Positions 20,328 to 25,759 are shown, counted from the stretch's first letter. The stretch: DNA of 64,000 bases from Balneola sp. (GCA_003712055.1 RHLJ01000002.1:62001-126000); one strand, 5' to 3'. The notes: generated by a model from the letters alone, not told the origin. Translations and numbers: made by a program.

Positions 20328-22160
20328 ATGATCGGGATAACAAAAAAATGGCTGCTTACCATTTGGATTGCTATCTATGGAGTAGTAGCATATTCGCAGA
20401 CCTTACCGGGGCAATCGGTAGCACCTGATATACAGGAGGAAGCGACCAAGTACGAGAGATACTATGAAGTAGTATTAGATAATGCTTTATCAGATTACTA
20501 TAAAGCTGGTACTTTTATAGTAGATGTGAAAGCAACCTTAGAGCGTGTTTTGGTTCCAACAGGTTATGAAGTAGTAGAAGGGGAAGAAGCTATTCAAATC
20601 GAGAACCTTCCTGGATTACCTTTTATCCCGCCAAACCTCAGAGGATCCACACAACCAACTAGAGACAGTCTTAAAGCCTCAGGGTTTGATACAAGGTTTC
20701 GACTTACCAATCTCAATATCAAAGTACTTGTAGATACTTCATACAGCGATGAGGATGTAGAATTTGTAGAAGAAGCAGCATCCTTAATTTCAAACGCGGA
20801 CCGTTTTAGAGGTGATATTGTTTCTGTTGAAAAGAAAGTATTTCCAAGAAATGCCAGGGCTATTGAACAGGATGAACAAAGAGCACCTCAAAATAATGCT
20901 CAGGATGATCAGGTGGAACGGATTCAGCCTCAAAATGAGGAAGAAACTCAGGAAGCAGAGAAAAGAATATTTTTAGGAATCGACTGGAATAATCCTGCCC
21001 ATCTTATGTATGTAATTGCAGGCCTCGGAGTACTTCTTTTGATTGCATTACTATACGCAATTATGAAAAGTCCCAAAAAGGAGGAGCAGCCTCTCTATCC
21101 ATATCCAATGTTTGATCCTGCTGGAATGCAACAAGCAACTGCAGAAGAAAAAGGGATTCCTACAGGGCCGGATGCAAAAACATTAGCCTCTTTCGAAGAG
21201 GACAAAACTTTTATCACAAATGCTGTAATTAGTAGCCCAAGAGTAGTTGCTGATTTAATTCAGCAGTGGATAGCCAGTGACGATGAACAAGGTGTAATTC
21301 GTTCAGTAAGAGGATTGACAAGTGTAGATGAAAAGCTTTTAAATGTGTTAGAACCACATCTTGAGGTGGATACATTTGAAACGCTACGATTTGCCTCCGT
21401 GAATCTGGACGCAATTCCTATTGATGAGCGGATTGAAGAAGTAAAGAATTTTCGTAGAAGTGTACAGCAAATTAAAGTGGCTCAGGATTCTTCCGATTCA
21501 GGATCAAACTTATTCGACTTCGTATACCAGCTGACAGATCAACAACTTCTTCATTTAATGAAAGAAGAATCAGATGAAATGGTAGCAATACTATTGGCTC
21601 AGGTTGCAGGTGAAAGAGCTGGAGCAATTCTTCAAAAGCTTGATGATCAAAAGAGGATTTCCATTCTCCTGAAGATGGGTAAGATCAATAATATTCCTAT
21701 TTCGGTGTACAAGAAAGTAGCTTCTCACTTCTCCAATAAAGCATTATCTGTATCAGATATGAAGTACGTAGCTGCGGATGGTGTTGATAGCATACTTACT
21801 ACCATTGAAACATTGCCTCTTTCCGAGCAAGACAATTATGTGCGTTCGATAGCTGAGCAGGATCTCAATCTGGCCAAGAGGATCAAAAAGTTCTTCATTG
21901 GTTTTGATGATTTACCAAAAGTGAAAGACGAATTTGTACAGGGAGCTTTGGAAGAAGTTCCTACAGAAACTATCATATTAGCACTTAGAACTGCTCCAGC
22001 TGCTGTACGAGAAAAAGTATTACGAGTGAGACCGAAACGGGAGCAGCAGCTTATTCTTTCTGAAATACAAAACCCAACCGAGGCAACTACAAGAGAAATT
22101 GAGGATGCTCAAAAAGTAGTGTTGTATTCAGTTCGGCGTAAAATGAAAACAGAGGGGTAG
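20328..22160 (+). CDS. FliF ring domain - TM - FliG fusion protein (non-flagellar rotor candidate)
   Basis: A 610-residue membrane protein. A signal peptide/TM (7-24) is followed by a periplasmic part (42-173) that resembles the FliF ring-building domain 3: YYEVVLDNALSDYY...FIVDVKATLE, then LNIKVLVDTSYSDEDVEFVEEA and DRFRGDIVSVEKKVFP, equivalent to FliF's V.VVVD...RGD.V.V..PF. A charged linker, a TM (224-246) and a cytoplasmic half (285-610) follow that is FliG-like over its middle and C-terminal domains: LALRTAPAAVREKVLRVRPK matches FliG's LIALKGAE..REKFLRNMS. E. coli FliG torque residues K264, R281, D288, D289 fall on R554, R571, S578, E579. It heads a five-gene operon with MotAB. A surface or export rotor is inferred, not shown. 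Confidence 0.85.
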   Translation: MIGITKKWLLTIWIAIYGVVAYSQTLPGQSVAPDIQEEATKYERYYEVVLDNALSDYYKAGTFIVDVKATLERVLVPTGYEVVEGEEAIQIENLPGLPFIPPNLRGSTQPTRDSLKASGFDTRFRLTNLNIKVLVDTSYSDEDVEFVEEAASLISNADRFRGDIVSVEKKVFPRNARAIEQDEQRAPQNNAQDDQVERIQPQNEEETQEAEKRIFLGIDWNNPAHLMYVIAGLGVLLLIALLYAIMKSPKKEEQPLYPYPMFDPAGMQQATAEEKGIPTGPDAKTLASFEEDKTFITNAVISSPRVVADLIQQWIASDDEQGVIRSVRGLTSVDEKLLNVLEPHLEVDTFETLRFASVNLDAIPIDERIEEVKNFRRSVQQIKVAQDSSDSGSNLFDFVYQLTDQQLLHLMKEESDEMVAILLAQVAGERAGAILQKLDDQKRISILLKMGKINNIPISVYKKVASHFSNKALSVSDMKYVAADGVDSILTTIETLPLSEQDNYVRSIAEQDLNLAKRIKKFFIGFDDLPKVKDEFVQGALEEVPTETIILALRTAPAAVREKVLRVRPKREQQLILSEIQNPTEATTREIEDAQKVVLYSVRRKMKTEG

Positions 22161-22164
22161 GTAC

Positions 22165-23274
22165 ATGAAGAAGTTCTTAAGTGCAGTGCTTCTAGGTTTC
22201 TTTTTCGTTCTGATAAGCTCTTCAGGAATATTATATGCTCAATCTTTTGAGTCCGGAGATCCCTATTTAATGGACCAAATTATGGAGGATATGGAGGAAC
22301 AATTAAATGATGTTCCTGCCAACATTCGACGAATTGCTGTTTACAAGATCAACTATAGTTCCCTTCGTTTCACAAATGAGGAAATAGAGTATATCCGATC
22401 TGAAATAGAGTATGCCTTTCGACAATACGCGGGACTTACCGTTTTATCTCCACCCGAATTAGAGCCAAACGATAAAATGAAAATCGTTGGCAGCGATAGC
22501 ACACTCCAGATCCTGAACATCAGGGGGAGGTCTTTGGCGGATGTCTCACCGGAAATGCTCCTTGAGATTACAGAAAAATATGGAGTTCAGGGTTTGGTAG
22601 AACTTTCAGTTCAACGCAGAAGTCCGGAAGGTTTAGTAATCGCATTGCGTATGATGAATCCTCAATCTCGGGAGATCGTGTGGACTAAGAGTTTCGTTTC
22701 TAACAAAAAGCCGGTAGTAGTAGAGGTTGAAAAAGGGAAAACCAGTCTTATTAATTTAGTAGTAGGTAGTAGAGTTGGGAATAATATCTTCACTCCTGAT
22801 AGTTTGGCTGCAAGAGATTCCAGTTTTGTTGCTGGCGATAGTGTTCTATCAGAAATAGTCGTGAATATTGGGGCCACTTATACATATCGCCAACCATTAA
22901 ACAGTGATAACAGCGCCTATTTAGGATTTACTGGCGGTTTTCATGCGCTTCTTCCAAGAGAGGTGGATGAATTTGATATGACTCTCATAGAGTTTGGTAT
23001 TACATATTATCAAGCTGTAGGAAAAAAGATAGAAGACATTAATGCATATAGAGTAGCTTTCTACTTAAATGGGAATATTCAATTTCCTCTTGGAAAACCT
23101 GAAGGACAGATGTTCTCTGCCAATCCGGGACTTCTCCTAAATTTGACACAGAATTTAGGTGTGGCGGTTTATAGTCAAATTACCCTTTCTGGCGAGACCA
23201 TCACTTTAGATAACACTCAACAAGTAACCTTTGATAAACTAAGCTATGGTATCCAGGGAATTATACGCTTCTAA
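22165..23274 (+). CDS. Exported CsgG/FlgO-like protein with C-terminal beta-barrel
   Basis: A 369-residue protein with a signal peptide (1-25, ILYAQ). Residues ~50-190 look like the Rossmann-like domain shared by CsgG, FlgO/FlgT and TolB N-terminal proteins: RRIAVYKINYSSLRFT, AFRQYAGLTVLSPPEL, ITEKYGVQGLVELSVQRR and LRMMNPQSREIVWTKSF (the usual 'gadyvl.g.v... l.l.l.d..tg.iv'). From ~230 on, amphipathic strands ending GIQGIIRF suggest an outer-membrane beta-barrel with terminal aromatic residue. It starts 4 bp after the FliFG-like gene and overlaps the next gene by 29 bp. It would be the outer-membrane element of the proposed machine. Confidence 0.65.
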   Translation: MKKFLSAVLLGFFFVLISSSGILYAQSFESGDPYLMDQIMEDMEEQLNDVPANIRRIAVYKINYSSLRFTNEEIEYIRSEIEYAFRQYAGLTVLSPPELEPNDKMKIVGSDSTLQILNIRGRSLADVSPEMLLEITEKYGVQGLVELSVQRRSPEGLVIALRMMNPQSREIVWTKSFVSNKKPVVVEVEKGKTSLINLVVGSRVGNNIFTPDSLAARDSSFVAGDSVLSEIVVNIGATYTYRQPLNSDNSAYLGFTGGFHALLPREVDEFDMTLIEFGITYYQAVGKKIEDINAYRVAFYLNGNIQFPLGKPEGQMFSANPGLLLNLTQNLGVAVYSQITLSGETITLDNTQQVTFDKLSYGIQGIIRF

Positions 23275-23866
23275 GTGGGTAGCACTACTTTTGGTTAGTG
23301 GGCTGCTTGTTTCAGGTGGATGTGCCTCCTCGGAGAATCTTTCAGCTGAAAATGGAACAACTCCTTCAACTCCTCAGCAACAAGAGAATAGGGCAACAAC
23401 ATCAAATGATGGCGATGAATCATCAGGGGAGAATGATATCATCGTAACCTATACAAACAGAAGTTCAAATATTCAGATAAAACTCGATCCAAAAAAAGAT
23501 CAATTTTATATGGATTTGAGTGGGATGACTCCACAGGAAAAAGATTCAGTGGTGGTAAAAGATTCCACGCTTATCAAAAATCGCGCTATAGATATCCAGA
23601 CTTTATTATCTAGCTACAGAAAAGCGCAGGATTTATTCTATTTAGGAGAATATCGTCAGGCATTAGAAGAAGTAGACAAGACGATAGAAATTCAGGAGAC
23701 GGCAGATGCTTATGCACTCAAAGGAACGATCTTCTTCATGTTAGAGAATATTACAGCAGCCCGGGCTAATTGGAACAGGGCGGTGCAGATGGATCCGAAT
23801 ATTCCGGTTCCAAGTATTCCGGAATTAGAAACGCTAATTGATGAAATAAGGGGCGAAGGTAATTAA
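23246..23866 (+). CDS. TPR lipoprotein of the FliFG/MotAB operon
   Basis: A 206-residue lipoprotein: lipobox VSGGC with Cys26, then a low-complexity Ser/Thr/Asn/Gln-rich linker (27-70). A C-terminal TPR pair lies at about 128-190 (AQDLFYLGEYRQALEEVDKTI, AYALKGTIFFMLENITAARANWNRAV). It begins inside the 3' end of the barrel gene (29-bp overlap) and stops 2 bp before motA, so all are translated from one message. It may be a pilotin or assembly factor for the barrel protein; that is inference from context. Confidence 0.75.
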   Translation: MVSRELYASKWVALLLVSGLLVSGGCASSENLSAENGTTPSTPQQQENRATTSNDGDESSGENDIIVTYTNRSSNIQIKLDPKKDQFYMDLSGMTPQEKDSVVVKDSTLIKNRAIDIQTLLSSYRKAQDLFYLGEYRQALEEVDKTIEIQETADAYALKGTIFFMLENITAARANWNRAVQMDPNIPVPSIPELETLIDEIRGEGN

Positions 23867-23868
23867 TT

Positions 23869-24687
23869 ATGAGGCTTTCACTAACTAATTTATTAGGGGT
23901 AATATTTAGTGTTGGGATGTTGGTTTTTGGGATAACCGAAATTACTGGAACAACTACTGTGATTAACTCTATCCCTGCATTATCTGATTACCGGTTTTTA
24001 AATCTACCGAGTTTATTCATTGTTATGGGCGGTGTACTAAATGCGGTATTCATAACCTATCAGCCCAGGTATGTAGGAAAAGCATTCGGGAGTATTTTTC
24101 TGCTTTTTAGCCAGTCAAAAACCACGGCAAAAACACTGGTAAATGATTTGGAAAGCATCCTTGACTGGAATGATCAAATTAAAGCAAACAGGGTACAGGC
24201 GCTTATAAAGCTTGAAGAGGAGCATGCTGAAGATGTTTCTGGCTATTTGTTTTCCTTGTTAAGTACCAACTATACCAATGAAGATATCCAGGAGTTTGGA
24301 GCAAACCATGTGGAAGAGCAGTATTTCCGAAAAATGGTAGTGGTAGATGTATTAAGAGCAATGGGTGGAGCAGCACCATCATTCGGGATGTTTGGAACCC
24401 TATTTGGGCTCGTCGTGATGCTTGGTCAACTGGAAAATCCATCGGGTATGGGACCGGGTTTGGCAGCTGCTTTGATAACCACTTTATATGGTATCTCTTT
24501 GGCACGATTTATTTTTTACCCGATCGCAGAAAAAATTAAGAATATCACCCAGATGAATAAATTCAGGGAATACTTTATTTTGGAAGGCATTTTGATGATA
24601 AATGATAAAAAATCGTCGTTCTACATTCAGGATAAGATGAGTACTTATCTACAACGGGATTTCAAAAGGAATAAAAGCGAAGGCTAG
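23869..24687 (+). CDS. motA: MotA-family stator subunit
   Basis: A 272-residue inner-membrane protein with four TM segments (about 7-24, 44-64, 165-186 and 196-217). The cytoplasmic loop has NRVQALIKLE, in which R108 and E116 match E. coli MotA R90 and E98, the residues that contact FliG. RAMGGAAPSFGMFGTLFGLV and GPGLAAALITTLYG are the classic third/fourth-helix motifs; P170 and P218 match MotA P173 and P222. It is followed 11 bp later by motB. In flagellated bacteria MotA5B2 uses ion flow to turn the rotor; here the only rotor candidate is the fused FliFG-like protein of the same operon. Confidence 0.92.
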   Translation: MRLSLTNLLGVIFSVGMLVFGITEITGTTTVINSIPALSDYRFLNLPSLFIVMGGVLNAVFITYQPRYVGKAFGSIFLLFSQSKTTAKTLVNDLESILDWNDQIKANRVQALIKLEEEHAEDVSGYLFSLLSTNYTNEDIQEFGANHVEEQYFRKMVVVDVLRAMGGAAPSFGMFGTLFGLVVMLGQLENPSGMGPGLAAALITTLYGISLARFIFYPIAEKIKNITQMNKFREYFILEGILMINDKKSSFYIQDKMSTYLQRDFKRNKSEG

Positions 24688-24698
24688 CATTCGATTAA

Positions 24699-25391
24699 AT
24701 GCTCTCGCGAAAAAACATATCGCCCTTACAGAACCAGGAAGAGCATACTGAGGATCAAGACTGGTTGCTCACTTACAGTGATATGATCACCCTGCTATTG
24801 GCATTTTTTGCTATGCTGATTGCGGTGTCTTATGTAGATCTGAATCTTTGGGAACAGATGAAGCAAGGGTTACGTTCAGAGATTAGCAAAGAGGAAAATG
24901 TTCGGACTCCTCTTGCGGAAGTAAAACAGGATCTGGACTCCCTTCTTGCTACTGAAAAACAACAAGGTTTGGTGGATATCACTTTAGATAAAGATGGGAT
25001 AAAACTCTTCTTCAATAGTAGCTCCTTTTACAATTCAGGAGAAGCTAACTTGCTTCCAACGGGTGAAGGGATTATCGATAAGGTAACTCAGGCTATGAAT
25101 GCCCTCGATTTCTATAAATTCAATGTAGATGTGGAGGGCCATACAGATAATGTTCCCATCAATACCCCGGTTTATCCATCTAACTGGGAATTATCGGTTG
25201 CACGTGCTTCCGGGGTTGTAAAGTATTTTATTGAAGAAGGAATAGAAGGAGATCGGTTAAAGGCGTCTGGCTATGCTGACACTAAACCAGTGGTGCCACA
25301 CCAGGATGGTCAGAGGCAGGATATCATAGAAAACCGACCATTGAACCGTAGGATTGTAATCAGGATCTATTACCAGCTTAGCCAGCTTTAA
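24699..25391 (+). CDS. motB: MotB-family stator subunit with OmpA peptidoglycan-binding domain
   Basis: A 230-residue protein: cytoplasmic N-terminus, one TM helix (about 24-45) with the ion-carrying D28 in LLTYSDMITLLLAFF, a short periplasmic plug region, then an OmpA-like domain (about 110-228) with VEGHTDNVPI, NWELSVARASGVVKYF and NRPLNRRIVIRI. The domain anchors the stator to peptidoglycan. All residues known to be needed for ion flow and anchoring are present, so the stator should be active. It ends the five-gene operon; the next gene starts 8 bp after and may be co-transcribed. Confidence 0.93.
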   Translation: MLSRKNISPLQNQEEHTEDQDWLLTYSDMITLLLAFFAMLIAVSYVDLNLWEQMKQGLRSEISKEENVRTPLAEVKQDLDSLLATEKQQGLVDITLDKDGIKLFFNSSSFYNSGEANLLPTGEGIIDKVTQAMNALDFYKFNVDVEGHTDNVPINTPVYPSNWELSVARASGVVKYFIEEGIEGDRLKASGYADTKPVVPHQDGQRQDIIENRPLNRRIVIRIYYQLSQL

Positions 25392-25399
25392 ATCATGAT

Positions 25400-25759
25400 A
25401 TGGCTGAGAAGAATCTATCCCATTTCGCAGTGATTTTTGGAGTAGCCAACCCTGAGGAAGCGGCTACATGGTATCAAGATAAATTAGGTTTTGAGATTAC
25501 CTTCAAATGGGGCGATCCTGTCGAATATGTGGTAACAAACAGAGAAAAAAGTGTTTCCATCCATTTCTCTAAAACAGATAAAGAGATGAAAAACTCAATT
25601 TATGTGTTTTGTTATGATGTGGATAAGGTGTACGAGGAACTCAAAACAAGGGGGCTCGAGAAGATGGGAGTGCCTGAAGATCAGGAATATCAAATGAGAG
25701 ATTTTGAAGTGAGAGATCCTTATGGAAACCAAATTGTTTTTGGGACAGGAAGCGACTGA
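25400..25759 (+). CDS. Glyoxalase/VOC superfamily protein
   Basis: A 119-residue VOC-fold protein with FAVIFGVANPEEAATWYQDKLGFEITFKWGDP at the N-terminus and EVRDPYGNQIVFGTG at the C-terminus, in the bleomycin-resistance/glyoxalase style. Possible metal ligands are H8 and E110-region residues, but ligand sets vary and I cannot assign a substrate. It starts 8 bp after motB and may be on the same transcript without being related in function. Confidence 0.88.
   Translation: MAEKNLSHFAVIFGVANPEEAATWYQDKLGFEITFKWGDPVEYVVTNREKSVSIHFSKTDKEMKNSIYVFCYDVDKVYEELKTRGLEKMGVPEDQEYQMRDFEVRDPYGNQIVFGTGSD

Follow-up and report, generated by a model that had tools for sequence, protein, structure and literature searches.

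The stretch of DNA analysed here (the window) comprises 64,000 nucleotides of Balneola sp. (GCA_003712055.1 RHLJ01000002.1:62001-126000). Its positions 20328-25391 hold five open reading frames (ORFs) on the same strand, 4, 2 and 11 bp apart except for one pair that overlaps by 29 bp, just as in a preliminary description of the sequence, which saw in them a candidate non-flagellar rotary machine. They encode a FliF-FliG fusion (FliFG), an outer-membrane barrel protein, a tetratricopeptide repeat (TPR) lipoprotein, MotA and MotB (Table 1). Pfam recognised FliG_C (E 1.8e-18) and FliG_M (2.2e-9) in the first protein, TPR (1.4e-7) in the third, MotA_ExbB (2.2e-18) in the fourth, and MotB_plug (3.7e-14) and OmpA (2.3e-15) in the fifth; no Pfam match was obtained for the second.

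Table 1. Features of the five-gene locus and of its downstream flank (positions in the window; TM, transmembrane; VIA, structure comparison with VIA-align)
Feature	Position	Strand	Evidence
FliF-FliG fusion, 610 aa: signal peptide, periplasmic FliF RBM3/collar, one TM helix, cytoplasmic FliG N+M+C	20328..22160	+	
FliF RBM3/beta-collar domain, residues 29-173	20412..20846	+	structure comparison Z ~14 to solved FliF rings; profile E 3.4e-4
Single TM helix, residues 227-245, then K/R residues	21006..21062	+	hydropathy 2.56; model helix 223-246
Complete FliG, residues 317-610, without FliM-binding EHPQ motif	21276..22157	+	Pfam, structure comparison, motif count
Torque-helix residues R554, R571, E579 (E. 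coli K264, R281, D289)	21987..22064	+	alignment
Outer-membrane partner, 369 aa: LpoB/TolB-N-like domain and 8-strand barrel	22165..23274	+	
LpoB/TolB-N-like periplasmic domain, residues 32-181	22258..22707	+	VIA Z 10.0 to LpoB, 3.6 A over 126 residues
8-strand OmpA/NspA-type barrel, residues 189-369	22729..23271	+	VIA Z ~15
TPR lipoprotein, 206 aa, lipobox Cys26; proposed ring/outer-membrane adaptor	23246..23866	+	
MotA stator, 272 aa, R108 and E116 kept	23869..24687	+	
MotB stator, 230 aa, ion-binding D28, OmpA-type peptidoglycan-binding domain (residues 110-207)	24699..25391	+	
Glyoxalase-like gene	25400..25759	+	
Single-TM repeat protein, 346 aa	25868..26908	+	

The first protein consists of a signal peptide, a periplasmic FliF ring domain, a TM helix and a cytoplasmic FliG. 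In structure comparisons carried out with VIA-align on an AlphaFold2 (AF2) model of the fusion (mean pLDDT 75), residues 32-173 superimposed on the FliF RBM3/collar of 6sd1 (Z 14.1, 1.7 A over 96 residues) and residues 321-610 on a whole FliG, 8wiw (Z 15.9). A profile built from 33 N-domains matched a solved FliF, RGD motif included, and Pfam, for which the N-terminal half of the window protein alone is too diverged, detected YscJ_FliF_C in 26 of 43 fusions. Both halves therefore fold as FliF RBM3 and FliG, corroborating the fusion proposed earlier, and neither was found to be unlike its flagellar model. A FliF RBM3 collar and a complete FliG are what this protein has in common with the flagellar motor; in contrast to that motor, the two are fused and of FliF only RBM3 is kept, with a single TM helix. 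Published work describes FliF-FliG fusion proteins that assemble into rings (PMC6079021, PMC11481574).

The fusion was found in many genera among 244 genomes of the class, in a survey that covered one phylum together with one pattern-based scan. Three gene orders were distinguished. The order of the window, FliFG-barrel-TPR-MotA-MotB (type A), was kept across other genera when its conservation was checked, as the preliminary description had recommended. In type B, also recurring, the order was pilins-chaperone-usher-FliFG-TPR-MotA-MotB, and in type C, found in one family of another class of the same phylum, it was barrel-TPR-MotA-MotB-FliFG. The barrel proteins of types A and C aligned over 297 columns (hhalign probability 94.9%, E 4.5e-8), and the presence of the same five components in permuted order, with homologous barrels, is strong evidence for one machine. 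A search of genome contigs with a 7-row alignment gave 24 loci, all named Balneolaceae, Balneola, Balneolales or Rhodothermia. A genome of the type C family (G641) carried two fusion genes (C366 and C310), one of them much nearer to types A/B (E 2e-94), which makes transfer or duplication across classes likely.

The last two proteins were confirmed as MotA and MotB of the flagellar type by Pfam and residue conservation, MotP/PomA models matching MotA at E 1e-29 to 1e-35. The torque and ion residues named beforehand (R554, R571 and E579 of FliG, R108 and E116 of MotA, D28 of MotB) proved right. Among the type A relatives, R571 and E579 were kept in 20/20, MotA R108 and E116 (the equivalents of R90 and E98) in 18/18 and MotB D28 in 21/21, so that the equivalents of R90, E98, R281 and D289 are all present in this type; the R554 position was basic in just 14/20, and the equivalents of FliG D288 and R297 were not kept (S578 and T587 in the window protein). 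R568 of the fusion was invariant across types A and B, and the membrane Asp was found in all 40 MotB proteins. Most torque and ion residues of MotA/MotB are thus common to the flagellar motor and the window system. Judging from the membrane Asp, the peptidoglycan-binding domain and the MotA charges, MotAB is a flagellar-type stator here, with a 5:2 assembly and ion-driven rotation as putative properties. In three type C loci (L123, L124 and L125), R/H replaced D289 and K replaced R281 in FliG, and MotA had no R90, so the stator-rotor contact of this type must differ. A MAFFT alignment had suggested that charges were swapped in type C (MotA R90 to D, FliG D289 to R); this was discarded as an alignment artefact, because the gap-free R-x7-E reading gave N/S/Q.

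The second gene product had been described as a barrel protein. An 8-strand OmpA-type barrel was indeed recognised, but the protein also contains an LpoB/TolB-N-like domain, and the modelled barrel probably serves as an anchor in the membrane or as a ring, not as a pore. Secretion would need a wider barrel than that of type A, and a driven outer-membrane ring or an adhesin is therefore likelier. A PDB profile search with the barrel alignment gave no useful sequence match. The lipobox Cys26 of the TPR lipoprotein was invariant (43/43 relatives in types A and B), and the lipoprotein of the window was homologous to the TPR tail of the type B ushers.

In the genome of 3.63 Mb (99.4% complete), and with positive controls detected, whole-genome searches found no FlhA or FliP of the export gate, no FliM, no flagellin (PF00669) and no rod/hook C-terminal domain (PF06429). 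The absence of rod, hook, filament and export genes that had been noticed in the window holds for the whole genome, where no full flagellar set was found elsewhere. FliG_C matches were two, at the window locus and at a second locus (L003). FliM/FliN, export gate, rod, hook and flagellin of the flagellar motor thus have no counterpart in the window system, which is instead proposed to be joined to an outer-membrane barrel or usher via TPR modules. Among the relatives, the fusion occurred without FlhA in the genus of the window, in the genus including Balneola sp. EhC07 and in others, and alongside flagellar FlhA and FliM in yet others, so the system is independent of the flagellum. Balneola sp. 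EhC07, a culturable carrier, has both type A and type B and no FlhA. The idea of a machine for another purpose is supported by these results with one correction: some carriers are also flagellated, so it is not simply a replacement for the flagellum. FlhA was found in none of eight genomes (G001-G008) of the genus including Balneola sp. EhC07; Balneola vulgaris, which may or may not be among them, is listed as flagellated (PMC5167729).

Flagella do occur in related genera, as would be expected if the five genes were the relic of a lost flagellum. A tree of 67 FliG domains, however, had a branch with 100/100 support that separated all 47 fusions from the 20 flagellar FliGs, several of which came from genomes also carrying the fusion; the fused FliGs thus form a lineage apart from the flagellar FliGs of the same family. 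The fusion co-exists with full flagella in several genomes, and its genes are intact and, in the genome of the window, duplicated. The tree and the co-existence refute a relic, which we hold to be hardly credible. The FliM-binding EHPQ motif was present in 20/20 flagellar FliGs and in 0/47 fusions, its loss agreeing with the missing FliM.

The second copy (L003) lies in a type B locus of the same genome, where four pilin-like genes, a chaperone-like gene and a gene for a 1007-aa usher-like protein with a C-terminal TPR precede FliF-FliG, a TPR lipoprotein, MotA and MotB. A genome without a flagellum thus holds two full motor cores (ring and ion-driven stator genes), each beside an outer-membrane protein, and the copy in the pilus operon probably acts, by spinning or pulling, on a structure that is not a flagellum. 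Usher was detected by Pfam in 3/19 members (best 6e-8), PapD_N in 5/16 chaperones (best 7e-4), and the pilins gave only weak matches to DUF4402; in PDB profile searches, the chaperone alignment gave no useful sequence match and the usher alignment mainly TPR matches. By these matches, the type B locus may be called chaperone-usher-like, not a proven member of the chaperone-usher group. It resembles chaperone-usher pili in having usher-, chaperone- and pilin-like genes in order, and differs from them in the TPR tail gained by the usher and the complete rotor and stator genes gained by the operon. To our knowledge, chaperone-usher systems have no inner-membrane motor.

Adjacent MotA and adjacent MotB genes were each found for 40 of the 47 full fusions, and where either was missing the contig ended within ~2.3 kb; MotA/MotB adjoined every fusion locus for which the sequence reached far enough. 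In three loci (L055, L056 and L057), the FliF-like protein ended soon after the TM helix, and all three lacked MotA/MotB and kept the usher and the TPR protein. Where FliG was lost, MotA and MotB were lost too, as expected if MotAB acts on FliG. The usher of L055 was split, and this locus may be decaying. In the 79 usher matches of the class, a C-terminal TPR was present in 28/28 with an adjacent FliF(G) gene versus 0/51 without one (Fisher 5e-22, counts and value ignoring the relatedness of the genomes). From this restriction of the TPR tail to ushers beside FliF(G) we infer a coupling role, in which TPR modules would connect the outer-membrane partner with the FliF collar.

All eight motorless usher loci that were fetched had the chaperone-usher operon and downstream flanks as in their motorised relatives (pdhCBA in six), the usher ending in a SPOR-type tail, not TPR, with no FliFG and MotAB following. 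Between motorised and motorless relatives, the usher cores shared 60-78% identity as far as residue ~905; the 3' module beyond it differed, and in the flank identity was again ~78-96%. Both versions were intermixed on the usher tree, where well-supported branches forced at least six switches of state; one pilus locus thus alternates between a static peptidoglycan (SPOR) anchor and a motor module, and this repeated alternation makes a chance neighbourhood an unlikely account of type B. The type B MotB tail was homologous along its length to that of 7/8 motorless ushers (E down to 6e-35); the 3' end of the pilus operon may thus have undergone recombination. This tail of several SPOR-like units was seen in the C-termini of the motorless ushers (L147-L154) and in type B MotB (L003:10278-12047). 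The origin of the motorless usher by simple in-frame deletion was rejected, the tails being ~25% identical versus 60-78% for the cores, and a better fit is that two alternative 3' modules, both old, were exchanged.

The same alternation could be expected of a static, Tol-Pal-like link that ties inner membrane, peptidoglycan and outer membrane, with MotAB as a tension sensor or tether, and the likeness of the barrel N-domain to TolB-N/LpoB, the MotB and SPOR tails of peptidoglycan-binding types and the occurrence of FliF-only versions point the same way. Such a link appears improbable to us: the ion-binding Asp is invariant in MotB, the main type A torque residues are kept, and FliG and MotAB disappear together while the linking parts remain. 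A different use of the ion gradient would be that of an energiser, in which MotAB and the FliFG ring drive an envelope step (secretion or assembly of pilus subunits, or gating or pulling of the outer-membrane partner, like TonB-ExbBD) with no sustained rotation outside. The position of type B within a pilus assembly operon and the TPR tails that tie the usher to the FliF side would suit it, as would the pulling proposed for 5:2 motors in the Ton and Tol systems (PMC9389320). A pulling device would have no need of a ring rotor with peptidoglycan-anchored flagellar-type stators, however, the usher locus occurs also motorless, so assembly needs no motor, and the type A barrel has no room for secretion; we consider an energiser possible but rather unlikely.

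We therefore regard as the likely explanation a non-flagellar ion-driven rotary machine, in which peptidoglycan-anchored stators turn a FliFG ring that acts via TPR adaptors on an outer-membrane barrel or on an usher/pilus. MotA/MotB units would be held on peptidoglycan by the OmpA domain of MotB; an ion would bind the MotB Asp and pass, and MotA would push the FliG half of the fusion, as is known from flagella. The fused subunits would make an inner-membrane ring whose FliF RBM3 collar projects into the periplasm, presumably with no flagellar-type switch, FliM and FliN being missing. The TPR modules (the lipoprotein in the window, plus the usher tail in type B) would link the collar to the outer-membrane partner. 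In the window, proteins with an LpoB-like domain and an 8-strand barrel may form this partner as a ring or anchor; in the paralogue, it may be a chaperone-usher-like pilus. The partner, turned or pulled, could then be a powered surface structure with which the cell moves over surfaces, adheres under load or deploys pili; type B is most simply read as a pilus that is turned or pulled. The preliminary proposal of a stator that turns or pushes the fused ring for a non-flagellar end, tied to the outer membrane, gains support from the conservation of the five genes and from the co-loss, the rotation itself being a deduction.

Several observations weigh against such a rotary machine. It is deduced here, ring and rotation included, from genes and models, and in the AF2 model of the fusion confidence held within domains only (pTM 0.28), so that the inter-domain geometry is unreliable. 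Torque charges are not uniform across types: the E98 equivalent is gone from type B MotA (S in 14/19), whose R90/E98 charges are only partly kept, and type C FliG carries R/H at the D289 position. No filament or adhesin gene lies beside type A, the FliF-only loci show a ring part kept with no motor, as a scaffold, and the counts that associate usher tails with FliF(G) take no account of relatedness.

Among known systems, Zorya phage defence, in which ZorAB motors activate effectors, has a MotB-like subunit, and the window MotB matched ZorB models (E 4.6e-20), as any MotB would. MotA matched no ZorA model, Zorya has no FliF, FliG, usher or barrel among its parts, and type B occupies a conserved chromosomal site adjoining pdhCBA in several genera, not a variable island; a Zorya-like defence is very improbable, in agreement with the earlier remark that its partners differ. 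The GldLM motor of the type IX secretion system (T9SS) and gliding, with its periplasmic rings, resembles the proposed machine as a 5:2-type ion motor acting on envelope structures in the Bacteroidota group, but here the stator is flagellar MotA/MotB and the rotor FliF-FliG. Tol-Pal (TolQR, TolB, Pal and a TPR protein) has in common with it an ion motor, a TPR protein, a TolB-N-like domain and a peptidoglycan-binding protein, whereas it has no ring rotor or FliG and its stator is not of the flagellar type; of the TolA linker, TolB propeller and Pal, just the TolB-N/LpoB-like domain was seen, no genome search for TolA or Pal being made.

Downstream of the operon, a glyoxalase-like gene starts 8 bp 3' of MotB; it was also close to the operon in two genomes of the same genus and was not found there in other genera. 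It is followed by the gene for a protein of ~30-residue repeats (FDDLSxNxxLxLYNxxIPxxY...), for which a Pfam search gave no match.

No description of this system was found in the open-licence literature, including papers on 5:2 motors, MotAB evolution and gliding, in which few preprints were covered; this is weak evidence, and novelty is provisional. The flagellar motor is usually thought inseparable from export gate, rod and filament, and yet in bacteria without flagella a unit of five genes recurs that has, of this motor, only the rotor and the stator; in one form it powers, or plugs into, a pilus locus. We are inclined, with some reserve, to see here a new class of rotary machine, in which outer-membrane structures draw on a flagellum-type rotor and stator as an exchangeable source of power. 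A motor-driven chaperone-usher pilus (type B), whose locus bears either a motor or a static peptidoglycan anchor, would be one such structure. If this is true, a rotary machine would be added beside flagella, the T9SS motor and Ton/Tol, and a FliF-FliG ring without C-ring or switch would be open to study. It would bear directly on the recruitment of modular motors, for which the natural motor and no-motor versions of one locus would offer ready-made comparisons.

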